Source of the DNA: an uncultured Methylococcaceae bacterium
GTDB lineage: Bacteria > Pseudomonadota > Gammaproteobacteria > Methylococcales > Methylomonadaceae
Assembly: GCA_903839855.1 (NCBI GenBank)
Contig: CAIMEB010000025.1
Span: 1 to 35,640, forward strand
Direction of reading: 5' to 3'
Length of the DNA: 35,640 bases
Position numbers and translations under genes: made by a program. The notes beneath the pieces were generated by a model, which worked only from the letters and a program-made list of their open reading frames with translations, was not told the origin of the DNA and searched no databases. Below are positions 5,274 to 17,953 of this stretch, one piece after another; position 1 is the stretch's first letter; the number at the start of each line of letters is the position of its first letter.

Positions 5274-7661
5274 ATGACGACTACTTTAAAGCTTCCCATT
5301 GAGTCACTGAAACTGAATGTCGATTTAACAGACATTGACTTCCCGGAAGCTCCCCGCTCGCAAAGCGGAATTTTAGGACAACCCAGAGCACAATCCGCCT
5401 TAGAATTCGGCATTGCCATGCCAAATCCAGGCTACAATATTTTTGTGATGGGTGAACCGGGCTTGGGTCGTCTTTCCATGATTACCAATCATTTGGATCT
5501 ATTGGCTCACTTGCAACCAGCGCCATCATCTTATGCCTATGTCGACAATTTTGATAATTCCAGAGAACCCGTGGCTATCGAGTTACCTGCTGAATATGGG
5601 CAGGTGCTTTGTAAAGACATTGAAAAGTTATTAGATAACTTATTGGCCACTTTTCCTGCAGCGTTTGAAAGCCCGACCTATCAACAAAAAAAATCAGCTA
5701 TCGAACGACAGTTTAGTCAGTGTTATAACGCAGCTATTGACCTTGTTGATAGAAAAGCTCAAGCGGACAATATTGCTTTATTTAGAGAAGGAGAATCCAT
5801 CACTTTTGCACCTATCAGAGACAATAAGTCTCTGAACGAAGAGCAATTTACGCAATTGCCACAGGCAGAGCGTGAAACTTTCCATAGCAATGTTGAGGCG
5901 TTAGAAGATTATTTAAGTGACGTGTTATTAGAATTACCCCAATGGCGCCGCACTATGGTCGAAAAAATTAAACAGCTAGACAATGATACCATTAGCTTGG
6001 CGATTGACCCTTTCTTCTCTGAACTGAATGAGAAATATCAAAATATCGATGACGTCATTACTTATCTAGCAGAAGTTAAAAAGAACTTAAGTTTGACTAT
6101 TTCTGACTATTTAATGCCTGGGCGCACACTAGAGCCTCGTGAAACGGTCGCCAGACGTCTTGCCCTTAACGAACTTTACACCCCTAACATTCTGGTTGAT
6201 AACAAACTAGATAATGGAGCTCCCGTTATTTATGAACCTCATCCCATTTATCAAAACCTGTTTGGTCGAATTGAATATGTCAGTGACCAAGGCACCTTAG
6301 TCACTAATTATCAAAAAATCTGTGCGGGTTCATTGCATAGAGCCAATGGTGGCTACTTAATTCTTGATGCCGAAAAACTACTTACCTATCCATTTGTCTG
6401 GGAAGGACTTAAACGCGCCTTGCAATCAAGCCGAATTGAAATAGAATCCCCTTATTCGGAGTTAGGTGTCAACACCATTACCTTAAAACCCGAAGTTATC
6501 CCACTCAATGTAAAAGTGATTCTGGTAGGCTCACGCGATATTTATTATCTGTTAGAGGAAATGGATAGTGAGTTTAATGAGATGTTCAGAATTCTGGCTG
6601 ATTTTGATAATTACATTCCACGCACTGATGAATCGATGCAAGGCTTTGCCCTGCTGATGAAGAAACAGGCCGCCGATTCTGGCGCAAAGCCCTTGTCACA
6701 CGCCGCTATTGAAAGTTTAATTGAGCACAGTTGTCGCCTCGCAGAAAATCAGCATCATTTTTCTGCACATATTAAAGATTCCCTGGACATTATTGCTGAA
6801 GCTAATTTGTTTTGTAAGCAAGCCCAACATAATCAGATTGATCGATATCATATTGAACAAGCTTTATCTGCCAGAGAATACCGTAACGGTCGCTTATCTC
6901 AAGCGATTCTCGAAGAAATGCTGGACGGTACTATCCTGATTGATACCCAAGGAGAAGCCATCGGAAAAATCAATGGCTTAACAGTACTGGAAATTGGTGG
7001 CAGCAGCTTTGGCGCACCCGCAAGGATTACAACCACCGTCTATCCGGGTTCACGAGGCATTGTGGATATTGAGCGGGAAGCTGAACTGGGGCAAGCGATT
7101 CATTCAAAAGGCGTAATGATTTTAACAGGCTATCTGGGACATTCTTATGCGCAACAATTCCCGCTCGCTGTCTCAGCGAGTATTGCCATTGAGCAATCTT
7201 ATGGTTATATCGACGGTGACAGTGCTTCGCTTGCTGAACTTTGTTGTCTTATTTCGGCCTTAACCCGCACGCCTATAAAGCAAGCCTTTGCCGTTACCGG
7301 TTCGGTCAATCAATACGGTGAAGTTCAGGCGGTAGGCGGTATTAATGAGAAAATAGAAGGGTACTTTAGACTTTGCCAAGCCAGAGGCTTAGAAGGTCAA
7401 CACGCGGTTATTATTCCAGTAGCCAATAAGCGCAATTTGATGTTAAAGCAGGAAGTGATTGAGGCGGTTGCTAACGGCTTATTTGCTGTCTATGCAGTAG
7501 CCAGCGTCAATGAGACTTTGGAGTTATTGACCGGACAGCTTGCAGGTGAAGCCAATGAAGAGGGCAATTACCCAGAAAACAGTATCAACTTTAAAGCCAT
7601 ATCACGTTTAAAAGAAATTTCCGATATGGCTGTAGATGATGATAAAGAGGCTGAAGGTTAA
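5274..7661 (+). CDS. ATP-dependent Lon-type protease (LonB/YcbZ-like)
   Basis: Cytoplasmic AAA+ protease of the AAA_32 plus Lon_C architecture, distinct from housekeeping LonA because it lacks the LonA N-terminal substrate domain. The N-terminal ATPase part has a Walker A-like loop, GEPGLGRLS (about residues 60-68), with Arg where the usual Lys sits. The centre is helical. The C-terminal proteolytic domain carries the Ser-Lys dyad at Ser650 (GDSASLAEL) and Lys693 (GGINEKIEG), 43 residues apart as in E. coli Lon. At 795 aa it is complete. A weak ribosome binding site precedes the ATG. It converges on the SPOR-domain gene with 7 bases between them. The substrate is unknown. Confidence 0.88.
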   Translation: MTTTLKLPIESLKLNVDLTDIDFPEAPRSQSGILGQPRAQSALEFGIAMPNPGYNIFVMGEPGLGRLSMITNHLDLLAHLQPAPSSYAYVDNFDNSREPVAIELPAEYGQVLCKDIEKLLDNLLATFPAAFESPTYQQKKSAIERQFSQCYNAAIDLVDRKAQADNIALFREGESITFAPIRDNKSLNEEQFTQLPQAERETFHSNVEALEDYLSDVLLELPQWRRTMVEKIKQLDNDTISLAIDPFFSELNEKYQNIDDVITYLAEVKKNLSLTISDYLMPGRTLEPRETVARRLALNELYTPNILVDNKLDNGAPVIYEPHPIYQNLFGRIEYVSDQGTLVTNYQKICAGSLHRANGGYLILDAEKLLTYPFVWEGLKRALQSSRIEIESPYSELGVNTITLKPEVIPLNVKVILVGSRDIYYLLEEMDSEFNEMFRILADFDNYIPRTDESMQGFALLMKKQAADSGAKPLSHAAIESLIEHSCRLAENQHHFSAHIKDSLDIIAEANLFCKQAQHNQIDRYHIEQALSAREYRNGRLSQAILEEMLDGTILIDTQGEAIGKINGLTVLEIGGSSFGAPARITTTVYPGSRGIVDIEREAELGQAIHSKGVMILTGYLGHSYAQQFPLAVSASIAIEQSYGYIDGDSASLAELCCLISALTRTPIKQAFAVTGSVNQYGEVQAVGGINEKIEGYFRLCQARGLEGQHAVIIPVANKRNLMLKQEVIEAVANGLFAVYAVASVNETLELLTGQLAGEANEEGNYPENSINFKAISRLKEISDMAVDDDKEAEG

Positions 7662-14776: not shown

Positions 14777-14882
14777 TGACGGATCATTACTTGCTCCAGT
14801 TTTTGTAAACACAGTTAGCGTTAATACGACAACAGCATACCTAAAATAAGAGTATATTTCTTCTTTATTTTTGGGTCTTTGG

Positions 14883-14919
14883 TATGATAGTGACATTCGA
14901 TAAGCCTAATTTATCGAAT
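14883..14919 (+). promoter_or_regulatory. Promoter and operator-like palindrome of the RiPP cassette
   Basis: A -10-like TATGAT (14883-14888) is followed by a perfect 9-bp inverted repeat, ATTCGATAA (14895-14903), spacer GCCTAAT, TTATCGAAT (14911-14919). The palindrome would cover the transcription start and early leader, a normal repressor site. No good sigma70 -35 lies 17 bases upstream (CTTCTT), so an activator or alternative sigma factor is possible. The half-site does not match a Fur box. The regulator is not encoded nearby. Confidence 0.5.
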
Positions 14920-14945
14920 ATTTATAATAATATATGGGAGCCAAC

Positions 14946-15389
14946 ATGAAAAAAACAAACAAAACACCTTTAGCAGCGGCTATGGGTGCAGCCTTAATTT
15001 CAACTTTGTCAGTCACGGTTGCTCATGCAGAAGCTAACCCCTTTGGGATGACTGAGTTATCTACTGGTTATATGCAAGTTGCTGAAGCAGGCAAAACAGC
15101 TGAAATGGCTTGTGGTGCTTCAATGAATATGGCCAAACCTAAAACACCAGAAGGCGCGTGCGCGGGTAGTGTAACCCCCGCAAAAAAAGCAACTGATGCA
15201 AAAACGACTGAAGGTTCTTGTGGCGATATGATGAAAGACGGTAAAATGAAGCCGGGAATGGAAGCAGCCTGTGGCGCTATGATGAAAGGCAAAGAGGGCG
15301 CTTGTGGCGAAATGATGAAAGGCGAATCAATGAAAGGCAAAGAAGGCGCTTGTGGTGCGGGGATGCATCCAGCAACTCCAGCTAAATAA
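14946..15389 (+). CDS. hvfA: HvfA/bufferin-like RiPP precursor, exported, with Cys pentapeptides
   Basis: Exported Cys-rich precursor for the MNIO maturase encoded next. I start at ATG 14946 because GGGAG (14936-14940) sits five bases before it; an ATG at 14934 would overlap that Shine-Dalgarno. The 147-residue product has a Sec signal ending AHA (about residue 28), then NPFGMTELSTGYMQVAE, a conserved NPF..L..GY leader-like segment. Six Cys follow (56, 72, 92, 109, 120, 136), each in a pentapeptide: EMACG, EGACA, EGSCG, EAACG, EGACG, EGACG, separated by Met/Lys/Gly-rich linkers. In HvfA of Haemophilus the equivalent EGKCG motifs are reported to be converted to oxazolone-thioamide copper ligands. 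The same fate here is inference from the motif and neighbours. Confidence 0.85.
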   Translation: MKKTNKTPLAAAMGAALISTLSVTVAHAEANPFGMTELSTGYMQVAEAGKTAEMACGASMNMAKPKTPEGACAGSVTPAKKATDAKTTEGSCGDMMKDGKMKPGMEAACGAMMKGKEGACGEMMKGESMKGKEGACGAGMHPATPAK

Positions 15390-15412
15390 GATTCAACTTA
15401 GTTAGTAACATC

Positions 15413-15436
15413 GGAGGGCAGAGTATTCTGCCCTCC
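15413..15436 (+). promoter_or_regulatory. Stem-loop between precursor and maturase genes
   Basis: GGAGGGCAGA (15413-15422), loop GTAT, TCTGCCCTCC (15427-15436): a perfect 10-bp GC-rich stem in the 79-base gap. It is followed by AATTCCAATTT rather than a T run. It could be a leaky terminator or a 3'-end stabiliser that lets the precursor be made in excess over its enzymes. It does not cover the maturase ribosome binding site (AAAGGTG near 15455). Confidence 0.65.
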
Positions 15437-15468
15437 AATTCCAATTTAATAACCCAAAAGGTGTTCTT

Positions 15469-16320
15469 ATGGACACAAACTCATTTTTAGTTGAAGGGGC
15501 AGGCTTAGGTCTACGAAGACCTCTTCTTACCCTATTTCTCGAAACACAACCTCAAGAAGTCGGCTTTTACGAAGTCGCCCCGGAAAACTGGATTACCATC
15601 GGTGGTAAGTACGGCAAAGCATTTAAAGCGATGACCGAACGCTTTAATTTTGTTTGTCATGGTTTATCCTTGTCTCTGGGCAGCACTGACCCCCTGGATG
15701 AAAAATTCATCCGTGAGGTTAAGCAGTTTATGGCTGAGCATAACATCAAGTTTTACAGTGAACACCTGAGTTACTCCAGTAAAAAAGGGCATTTATATGA
15801 TCTTATGCCGATTCCCTTTACTTTAGAAGCTGTCAGGCATGTTGCTGAACGTATTAAGCGTGTTCAAGACATTCTCGAACAAAAGATAGCGGTTGAAAAT
15901 GTCTCTTATTATGCAGCACCCGGTCAGGAAATGACCGAAATAGATTTCTTTAACGCCGTCGTCGAAGAAGCAGACTGCAATATCCTCATTGATATTAACA
16001 ATATCTACGTCAACAGCGTTAATCACCAGTATGACGCAGAGGATTTCTTAAAAGCCATCCCCGCTCAGCGTATTGCCTATGCACACATTGCGGGGCACTA
16101 CGCAGTGGCTGATGATTTCTTGGTCGATACCCACGGCGCTGAGATTGTTGATCCCGTATGGTGGCTTTTAGGCAAAGCTTACGAACTCTATGGCGCTTTT
16201 CCTACCTTATTAGAGCGAGACTTTAATCTACCGCCAATAGATGAACTATTAAAAGAAGTTAATACCATTAGAACCATGCAACGTGCCTTGCAAACCCAAC
16301 AAGAAAAACGCTATGCATAA
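15469..16320 (+). CDS. hvfB: MNIO-family (DUF692) RiPP maturase
   Basis: Multinuclear non-haem iron oxygenase with a TIM-barrel fold, the MbnB/BufB/HvfB family, expected to oxidise Cys residues of the precursor encoded just upstream. Candidate metal ligands and conserved blocks are His64 (CHGLSLS), Glu98-His99 (SEHLSY), Glu143-Asn144 (VENVSYY), Asp175 with Asn177-Asn178 (IDINNIYVN), His206 and His210 (YAHIAGH), Asp220 and His222 (VDTHG), and Glu249 (LERDF). At 283 aa the length is typical. There is no signal peptide, so modification should occur in the cytoplasm before export. It overlaps the next gene as ATGcaTAA. The DUF2063 partner and exported Cys-rich precursor favour HvfB/BufB over methanobactin MbnB. 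Confidence 0.93.
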   Translation: MDTNSFLVEGAGLGLRRPLLTLFLETQPQEVGFYEVAPENWITIGGKYGKAFKAMTERFNFVCHGLSLSLGSTDPLDEKFIREVKQFMAEHNIKFYSEHLSYSSKKGHLYDLMPIPFTLEAVRHVAERIKRVQDILEQKIAVENVSYYAAPGQEMTEIDFFNAVVEEADCNILIDINNIYVNSVNHQYDAEDFLKAIPAQRIAYAHIAGHYAVADDFLVDTHGAEIVDPVWWLLGKAYELYGAFPTLLERDFNLPPIDELLKEVNTIRTMQRALQTQQEKRYA

Positions 16321-17071
16321 AACACCTAAGCCGATTGACTTTAAAGCCAAACAAACAGAATTCGCTGCTTATATCAGGGATCCTGACAATAATCCGCCGC
16401 CTGCGGATGTTAAAGAACAGCGCATAAAGATGTATAGAGAACTCTTCTTTAATAATATTGAAAGCTTTCTATCCGGCAATTTTCCTGTATTAAAAAAAAT
16501 ACTCGGTGATTCAGAATGGCTGGTATTAGAGAAGGATTTCTTTGCAAAACACGCCTGTCAAACACCGCATTTTTCTGAGATTCCAGAAGAATTTCTTGAT
16601 TATCTACAAAATGAACGTGACAGCTCGACAGACTATCCTTTTATGCTGGAACTTGCCCATTACGAATGGGTAGAAATGGCGCTATCTATCTCAAGAAATG
16701 AAGTCAACACGCAGATATCCGAATTCGATAACCTGCTTAGTCAAACACTAACCTTATCACCATTAGCGTGGCCTCTCGCTTATCAATACCCCGTCCATAA
16801 AATTGCCCCCGAGTTTTTACCTGTAGAGGCACCCGCACAGCCTACTTTTTTGATTGTCTATCGAAATCCAGAAGATGAAGTCAATTTTATTGAGATAACA
16901 GCAATGACTTACCGCTTACTGGAGATTATTCAGGAACAAGCATACGCGGATACCGAGGCGTGCTTAAAACAAGTAGCCAAAGAAATGAATCACCCAAATC
17001 CAGAAGTTGTTATCAAAGGGGGGTTACAGATTCTCAAAGACTTAGCTGAAAAAATCATTGTCTTAGCTTAA
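16313..17071 (+). CDS. hvfC: DUF2063 RiPP maturation partner (HvfC/BufC-like)
   Basis: Partner protein of MNIO enzymes, thought to bind the precursor leader and present it to the oxygenase. The N-terminal DUF2063 domain is recognisable (about residues 8-95, including RIKMYRELFFNNIESFLSGN followed by a Pro-Val-Leu). The C-terminal half contains ITAMTYRLLEIIQEQ and resembles a winged-helix-like leader-binding region. I choose ATG 16313 (252 aa), which overlaps the hvfB stop by eight bases; a GTG at 16283 would add ten residues inside hvfB. It is the last gene of the cassette. No DoxX-type hvfD or second maturase follows before the large inverted repeat. Confidence 0.9.
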   Translation: MHKTPKPIDFKAKQTEFAAYIRDPDNNPPPADVKEQRIKMYRELFFNNIESFLSGNFPVLKKILGDSEWLVLEKDFFAKHACQTPHFSEIPEEFLDYLQNERDSSTDYPFMLELAHYEWVEMALSISRNEVNTQISEFDNLLSQTLTLSPLAWPLAYQYPVHKIAPEFLPVEAPAQPTFLIVYRNPEDEVNFIEITAMTYRLLEIIQEQAYADTEACLKQVAKEMNHPNPEVVIKGGLQILKDLAEKIIVLA

Positions 17072-17096: not shown

Positions 17097-17190
17097 TATA
17101 GGATGTGCTGAACGATAATGAAGCGCATCGCTGTAAAGTGGTGATGCGCTTCACTGCAGTTCAGTTCAGTTCAGTTCAGCACATCCTATA
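17097..17190. repeat. Large nested inverted repeat with CAGTT tandem units
   Basis: The outer arms are a perfect 17-bp inverted repeat: TATAGGATGTGCTGAAC (17097-17113) and GTTCAGCACATCCTATA (17174-17190). Inside is a second perfect 11-bp pair, TGAAGCGCATC (17119-17129) and GATGCGCTTCA (17143-17153). The right arm also holds four consecutive CAGTT units (17157-17176) with no counterpart on the left. It lies between hvfC and a convergent lipoprotein gene, so bidirectional termination is plausible, but its size and nesting suggest a small mobile or REP-like palindrome. Confidence 0.75.
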
Positions 17191-17232: not shown

Positions 17233-17733
17233 CTAGAAAAGTTTATTAAAGAATCCTTCCTTCTTAACTTCAGGTGCTTGAGGTGCTTGATAGGTTTTAA
17301 AGCCTTTATCTATCGGTTGCTGCTGCGCGCAATGATATGCCGCACTATTAAATTTGATTTGTAACGAACGTGGATTTTCATGTTCATCAAGGTATTTCTC
17401 GACCTCTTCATCCGTTAAATCTTTTAGCATAAACGTAGTAACGCATTCACAGGATTTAGTGAAACGAACCTTATCTTCTTCTACGTTAACCGAATTCTTT
17501 AATTCCCTGGTAACGCATTGCGCAGCAAAGGCATCATGAAATTTATGCTTTTCAGTGGCGGTCACGGGTTCATCTTTAGAATGATCAAAAGGATTAAAGA
17601 CTGTTTTAGCGGGTGTAGCAGGGATCTTTTTTTGTTCTTTTTCCGCATCAGAACAACCCGTAATAGAGAGTGCAAAAATTGAACTGGTCAGAGCGGCAAG
17701 AAATAAATTTTTTGTAAAGCTGTGTATTTTCAT
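17233..17733 (-). CDS. Small predicted lipoprotein, function unknown
   Basis: 166-residue precursor starting at the ATG at 17733. A basic n-region, a hydrophobic stretch and a lipobox (LSITGC, Cys27) indicate signal peptidase II processing and lipid anchoring. The mature part is charged, with four Cys (near ...FAAQCVTREL, FTKSCECVTTF and AAYHCAQQQ) that could form disulfides, and a Pro-rich tail. The block KDLTDEEVEKYLDEHENP is acidic and helical. The frame is open upstream to 17808, but those extra residues would spoil the signal peptide. No strong ribosome binding site is visible. I do not recognise a family. It converges on the RiPP cassette across the inverted repeat. Confidence 0.75.
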   Translation of the reverse strand: MKIHSFTKNLFLAALTSSIFALSITGCSDAEKEQKKIPATPAKTVFNPFDHSKDEPVTATEKHKFHDAFAAQCVTRELKNSVNVEEDKVRFTKSCECVTTFMLKDLTDEEVEKYLDEHENPRSLQIKFNSAAYHCAQQQPIDKGFKTYQAPQAPEVKKEGFFNKLF

Positions 17734-17953
17734 AAGCTGCATCGCAAAGGTTAAAAAGTCCAAGGTTTGCCAATCAGACCTTGAAATTGTTACTGATAAA
17801 AAGGGCATAACTTTATCACTTAATAACGAGGAGTTCTAGTTATCTTCCACGTGTAAACGTCATAATTGAAAACATCATCCCGTCATTTATGCGATACTAC
17901 GCAACTTTTAAATCTTCCAGATTGTACTGACAGCATTTTTTAAGGAGTAATAC

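Follow-up and report, generated by a model that had tools for sequence, protein, structure and literature searches.

A probable captophorin-type hvfABC operon with a methionine-rich, lysine-poor precursor in the Methylomonadaceae

We analysed a 35.6-kb contig, hereafter the window, from a 3.40-Mb draft assembly of 294 contigs that is 99.98% complete. Three co-directional genes at 14946-17071, hvfA, hvfB and hvfC, form an operon that is probably (about 70%) of the captophorin (HvfABC) type, equipped with a lineage-specific precursor; its chemistry and its role in copper handling are assigned by analogy with relatives. The identities of the genes, the anatomy of the operon and its conservation were established in this analysis. 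Genome mining for methanobactin left it open how methanotrophs that use particulate methane monooxygenase (pMMO) handle copper when they lack methanobactin (PMC3621798; papers are cited here from excerpts of their text). The hvfABC operon provides a concrete and testable candidate, being present in 115 of 121 genomes of the family, with a precursor signature that occurs in no sampled genome outside it. The features of the locus are as follows.

hvfA, 14946..15389, + strand: exported precursor of 147 aa, Met-rich, with six Cys in E-x-[AS]-C-[GA]
hvfB, 15469..16320, + strand: MNIO (DUF692) maturase of 283 aa; NCBIfam NF003818, PF05114
hvfC, 16313..17071, + strand: DUF2063 partner with RiPP recognition element, 252 aa from its ATG; NF050145
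Extended -10 element TGG-TATGAT, 14880..14888, + strand: likely hvfABC promoter
Palindrome ATTCGATAA-N7-TTATCGAAT, 14895..14919, no strand assigned: where the transcript is expected to start; either an operator or a 5' hairpin
Stem-loop between hvfA and hvfB, 15413..15436, + strand: 10 pairs, 7 of them G-C, with a 4-nt loop; proposed control of the precursor:enzyme ratio

The operon lies between nth, which NCBIfam identifies as endonuclease III, and an opposite-strand gene at 17233-17808 for which Pfam returned no match; the start of hvfC overlaps hvfB by 8 nt. HvfB scored 433.5 bits against the NCBIfam model "HvfB family MNIO-type RiPP peptide maturase" (NF003818, cut-off 360) and 350.9 bits against Pfam PF05114. 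Similarly, HvfC scored 320.4 bits against "HvfC family RiPP maturation protein" (NF050145, cut-off 142), and in Pfam it matched PF09836 (DUF2063) with 89.2 bits, for a cut-off of 27.2, and NGO1945_C with 115.2 bits. Overall, these results agree well with a first-pass annotation made from the letters of the sequence, which had proposed an HvfABC-type operon with an MNIO gene, an overlapping DUF2063 gene and an exported six-Cys precursor: all three components are present, both enzyme-side proteins exceed their NCBIfam cut-offs, and the Pfam profiles for MNIO and DUF2063 bear out the two calls. The structure model of HvfB (pLDDT 85.2) matched 3bww best in the PDB (TM 0.80 on the query), a protein from Histophilus that is a relative of HvfB, followed by TglH and MbnB. 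HvfC matched 3dee (E=1.5e-12), the partner protein of the gonococcal cluster (PMC13097082). Searches of the neighbouring genes with NCBIfam and Pfam revealed no DoxX-like HvfX gene adjoining the operon; the fon cluster, as described in the excerpt of PMC13097082, likewise has none.

Captophorins, the products of MNIO-PME1 clusters, are copper peptides in which Cys is converted to 5-thiooxazole, and more than 20,000 examples are reported (PMC13097082). The heterocycle is now assigned as 5-thiooxazole in two studies (PMC13097082, PMC13419390), and relatives with the same set of partners bind Cu(I) (PMC13097082, PMC13419390, PMC12538549). The window holds the three elements of such clusters that can be read from the genes: an MNIO of the HvfB/FonB group, a DUF2063 (PME1) partner with a RiPP recognition element (RRE), and an adjacent Cys-rich exported precursor. 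The first-pass reading of an MNIO-DUF2063 pair that makes a copper peptide from Cys heterocycles stands as regards the type of operon, with the heterocycle specified as 5-thiooxazole in relatives; that the peptide handles copper in this organism is suggested by those relatives.

Several characterised systems resemble the operon in part. The oxazolin HvfABC system of nontypeable Haemophilus influenzae (PMC13419390) has the same precursor, MNIO and DUF2063 protein, a signal peptide and six target Cys. Its precursor, as described in that excerpt, is built of three AEGKCGEGKCG units in which every Cys follows a Lys, and it is accompanied by an HvfX (DoxX-like) gene, whereas the window has no Lys-Cys, has Met pairs between the sites and has no adjacent DoxX gene. 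Fontiphorin FonABC of Fontimonas thermophila (PMC13097082) shares the minimal set of three genes, the R, R, D and F enzyme residues discussed below and the Glu at -3, but FonA carries seven modified Lys-Cys sites of the EGKCG type, in contrast to the E-x-[AS]-C-[GA] sites and CGxMM of the window. The bufferins Buf1 (DUF2282) and Buf2 (PMC12452194) also combine an MNIO and a DUF2063 partner with an exported Cys precursor. The first-pass annotation had called the operon bufferin-like; as a statement of membership this was rejected, as the BufB model NF050167 gave 268.7 bits, below its cut-off of 310, and no DUF2282 match was found. Methanobactin (MbnABC) is another copper peptide made through an MNIO of the same fold (7dz9, 7tcw), from leader-peptide precursors (PMC12452194) and with MbnC as partner, whereas the window has a signal peptide and a DUF2063 partner. 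We rejected membership of this group as well: the MbnB model TIGR04159 gave 50.7 bits against a cut-off of 325, and the HvfB is the single MNIO found in the 99.98% complete draft, which thus has no MbnB. This agrees with the first reading, which had supposed a system separate from methanobactin. The kind of operon is already known. The Met-rich, Lys-poor precursor of this lineage and its near-universality are absent from the excerpts of the literature examined, and among the matches listed no description of the operon in methanotrophs was found in the titles and abstract openings of open-licence papers.

What the first-pass annotation overlooked is that the precursor itself is atypical, being Met-rich and having no Lys before Cys. 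It had described a Cys-pentapeptide precursor; the exported six-Cys peptide is indeed there, but the implied EGKCG repeat is not. The six sites of HvfA are EMACG, EGACA, EGSCG, EAACG, EGACG and EGACG, all fitting E-x-[A/S]-C-[G/A]; every one of the six has Glu at -3 and none has Lys at -1. CGxMM occurs at three sites, and at five a Met lies no more than four residues after the Cys. The N-terminus resembles a signal peptide with an AHA|E cleavage site, as judged by eye. In the published Lys-Cys group, the repeat seen most often is EGKCG (PMC13097082; also PMC12452194, PMC13419390), and a beta-helix has been predicted for EGKCG repeats (PMC12452194). The KCGExKCG / EGKCG repeat of the precursors behind NF050137 and NF050188 is absent from the window HvfA, in which 0 of 6 Cys follow Lys, and AlphaFold returned no fold for it (pLDDT 46.6), a result that speaks neither for nor against the beta-helix. 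Neither Pfam nor NCBIfam matched this protein. HvfA models run against it reported nothing at a limit of E=10, a setting at which the HMMER filters drop most matches above about 0.1; a canonical relative matched two HvfA models in the same search. The HvfA profile match that the first-pass annotation had proposed as a check was therefore not obtained.

Examining relatives revealed that the family precursors have shifted from Lys to Ala/Ser before Cys and have gained Met. The family set comprised 109 primary loci from the 115 genomes over the HvfB cut-off, six of which are not included, and yielded 93 precursors; the order set comprised 30 loci from the order's remaining families, with 30 precursors; and the class set comprised 70 loci with HvfB over the cut-off, with 55 precursors from other orders of the class. 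These sets were chosen via HvfB and so are not random samples. At 93 of the 109 primary family loci a Cys-repeat precursor lies no more than 900 nt upstream of hvfB. False picks (L022 in the family, L290 and L309 in the class) and second loci (L112 and L113) were removed from the precursor counts. Lys precedes 0.29 of the 806 family Cys, compared with 0.83 of 169 in the order and 0.87 of 403 in the class, and Ala or Ser takes this position at 0.53, 0.03 and 0.03, respectively. Glu at -3 is found at 0.86 of family, 0.93 of order and 0.89 of class Cys. C[GA]xMM marks 84 of the 93 family precursors, compared with 3 of 30 for the order and 1 of 55 for the class. Loss of Lys varies within the family: precursors without any Lys-Cys number 20 of 93 (0 of 30 in the order, 1 of 55 in the class), and in 22 of 93 Lys still precedes at least half of the Cys, as it does in 51 of 55 class precursors.

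As an exact DNA pattern, CGxMMKGKEG was recovered from 96 of 121 family genomes and from 25 of 29 genera, leaving four family genera without the exact stretch. Outside the family it occurred in 0 of 367 genomes of the class sample (369 genomes in total, among which only the window's own matched and the family member G010 did not), and outside its own genome in 0 of 397 of the 398 genomes of a phylum sample that overlaps the class sample. The HvfA profiles performed unevenly at E<=0.01 on the 13 class precursors (of 55) and 23 family precursors (of 93) that were tested: NF050137 recovered 13 of 13 and 10 of 23, and NF050188 recovered 12 of 13 and 12 of 23, respectively. Current HvfA profiles thus miss some members.

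HvfB exceeded its cut-off in the 115 of 121 family genomes, with any match in 116, in 85 of the 101 genomes of an order sample that includes family members, and in 93 of the 274 genomes of a class sample that contains two members of the family and one further genome from the order. Precursors near hvfB were also seen at L004 and L055, and about 1.5 kb upstream of it in G073, all outside the filtered count. A search with the precursor alignment gave a match in 17 of 17 genomes (15 of the 16 remaining ones, plus G006 and G035, which have no HvfB match), with a match near hvfB in G046, G049 and G073 at least; the sixteenth remaining genome, G086, has a CGxMMKGKEG stretch.

Some loci depart from this pattern. 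Loss of Lys alone is not unique to the family, because L306, from a genome of another order in the class, carries EGSCG repeats and no Lys-Cys, apparently through an independent loss. A second hvf locus (L113, in G074) encodes an enzyme 54% identical to that of the window and a precursor with the more canonical EGKCGEGKCG. In some family genomes precursor genes lie away from hvfB, and in L190 they are in tandem; at L195, L196 and L201 the neighbour of the distant precursor resembles, by eye, an MgtE-type transporter.

Turning to the enzyme, we take H64, H91, E143, D175, N177, N178, H206, D220, H222, E249 and D251 of HvfB to be candidate metal-site or catalytic residues, based on homology. Each of them is kept in more than 97% of the enzymes in the family (109), order (30) and class (30) sets, which upholds the earlier claim that the MNIO metal-ligand blocks are intact. 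In FonB, the Glu at motif position 1 sits between two Arg, a Phe lies near the residues flanking the Cys, and an Asp is the proposed base (PMC13097082). By motif and position, R16, R17, D251 and F252 of HvfB would correspond to R15, R16, D249 and F250 of FonB. The four HvfB residues are kept in 107, 109, 109 and 108 of the 109 family enzymes; in the order set and in the class set, 29 or all of the 30 enzymes keep each of them. A search for enzyme positions that follow the loss of Lys gave twelve at which family and class differ (43 and 217, for example), none of which is a published substrate-choice residue. The substrate-choice residues are thus unchanged although the precursor has shifted. 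Lys can thus drop out of the Lys-Cys motif while these residues persist, which bears on what such oxidases read in their substrate.

Outside the family most Cys follow Lys, so the enzyme may prefer other sites here. It is unlikely, in our estimate, that the Ala/Ser-Cys sites are modified differently or in part, with Met and free Cys thiols binding the metal. Such an outcome would fit the absence of Lys from all six window sites and the lower share of Lys-rich precursors in the family than in the class, but it sits poorly with the unchanged site-choice residues of the enzyme, with the retention of Glu at -3 and Gly/Ala at +1, and with the behaviour of FonBC, which modified an Ala-Cys variant. 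Specifically, FonBC accepted EAACGEGACG, with Ala for Lys, and, separately, Ala after Cys (PMC13097082). Set against these changes, four of the window sites need Lys-to-Ala only, one needs both changes, and one has Ser. Given the tolerance of FonBC for Ala, modification would be expected at the four Lys-to-Ala sites of HvfA; the double-change site and the Ser-Cys site go beyond the FonBC tests in the excerpt of PMC13097082.

In the captophorin reading that we prefer, HvfC would bind the leader of HvfA and bring it to HvfB, an iron oxidase by analogy with the H. influenzae HvfB, for which a mixed-valent diiron site has been shown (PMC13419390). HvfB would then convert the Cys of E-x-[A/S]-C-[G/A] to 5-thiooxazoles in the cytoplasm, and Sec would export the modified HvfA to the periplasm. 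There, the thiooxazole thiolates, probably helped by the neighbouring Met pairs, would bind Cu(I), and the peptide may act as a periplasmic copper buffer in a bacterium with copper-dependent methane oxidation. We infer the modification, export, copper binding, contribution of Met and physiological role from characterised relatives.

The genome matched PF02461 with 433 bits, and in NCBIfam the same gene scored 404 bits with AmoA_BACT (cut-off 290) and 351 bits with a joint methane/ammonia model (cut-off 318). This gene alone cannot separate methane from ammonia oxidation, so the methanotroph reading rests on relatives. When named genomes were scanned with the precursor alignment, 195 relatives were confirmed. 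The best 80 of the 195 comprise Methylobacter, Methylovulum, Crenothrix, Methyloglobulus and one MAG labelled Methylomagnum, and also include undesignated Methylococcaceae/Methylococcales and some "uncultured proteobacterium" MAGs. Together with the PF02461 match, relatives such as Methylobacter, Methylovulum and Crenothrix support the methanotroph lineage at which the first-pass annotation had hinted. Elsewhere in the window of this methanotroph-lineage genome, 34053-35378 encodes a methanethiol oxidase (778.6 bits with the MtoX model, cut-off 650).

This context raises a second use for the same chemistry, namely a copper store or supply for pMMO that substitutes for methanobactin where it is lacking. 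We regard this as possible, though clearly less probable than buffering. In the literature, relatives either give protection when copper is in excess (PMC12538549) or are induced by such excess (PMC13097082), the operon contains no transporter gene, and a signal peptide with no protease gene points to a resident periplasmic peptide. On the other side stand the near-universal HvfB of the family sample, much commoner than in the class sample, and a genome in which a single MNIO was found and which has a PF02461 gene. PF02332 had no match in this genome, nor in any control genome. In addition, several pMMO methanotrophs were without methanobactin operons in the 2013 genome mining (PMC3621798, excerpt). 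Family-wide conservation in methanotrophs keeps storage alive as a reading, while the literature favours protection for relatives. More doubtful is the bolder proposal that methanotrophs of the family make a distinct captophorin class, with 5-thiooxazole and Met-pair ligands, that serves as a copper reservoir feeding pMMO without methanobactin.

Least probable of the readings considered is that the peptide answers another stress, either oxidative or from soft metals such as gold and mercury, with copper incidental. In the characterised cases examined, as far as their excerpts go, the bound metal is copper; yet gold and oxidative stress elicit responses from related pathways (PMC13097082), and fusions of MerC with bufferin exist (PMC12452194). 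Nothing in the operon points to copper as the inducer.

Regulatory elements accompany the operon. A generic sigma-70 scan reported no site on the + strand, but upstream of hvfA all eight same-genus loci share a TAT[GC]AT hexamer in a constant position, with the TG extension in five of the eight, window included. The hexamer is also seen in 18 of 21 aligned named relatives (by eye; some are the same genomes as in the genus set). The operon's own promoter, proposed in the first pass, is thus backed by conservation though the generic scan missed it. In all eight same-genus loci the palindrome follows six or seven bases after the hexamer, with TTCGA/TCGA cores and covarying outer bases. A TCGA-type palindrome, one of them imperfect, was found in 17 of the 21 aligned named relatives (again by eye, with some of the same genomes). 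Under the strict pattern TTCGA...TCGA, 2-8 nt after a -10-like site, only 14 of 93 family loci matched, all eight same-genus loci among them, indicating that the promoter-palindrome pair belongs to close relatives.

The stem-loop of the first-pass annotation was located at 15413-15436, with its 10 pairs. Hairpins of at least 8 pairs separate hvfA from hvfB in 56 of 92 family loci, a denominator that still counts the false pick L022, which has no hairpin, versus 1.0% of mononucleotide shuffles; elsewhere they occur in 7 of 30 order loci and in 1 of 25 loci tested from the class. The median hvfA-hvfB gap is 98 nt in the family, 26 nt in the order and 22 nt in the class. Across 32 distinct hairpins, one position reads CG, GC, AT, TG or TA, which illustrates covariation only, as these hairpins were chosen for pairing. 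The generic scan reported no terminator-like site in this gap. No T-run follows the hairpin, and we therefore interpret it as an element for RNA processing or stability, or as a weak stop, that may let more hvfA than hvfBC be made. Rfam, at its gathering scores, had no match anywhere in the window.

Two further features of the window were recorded. The gene at 5274-7661 encodes a Lon-related protease, for which the LonB model gave 111.5 bits, far under its cut-off of 516.6. Just past hvfC, at 17097-17190, lies an inverted repeat, long and imperfect, that includes TTCAG tandem units; four further stretches of the genome, 35-48 nt long, match its left part with 90-97% identity, and it thus looks like a dispersed repeat.
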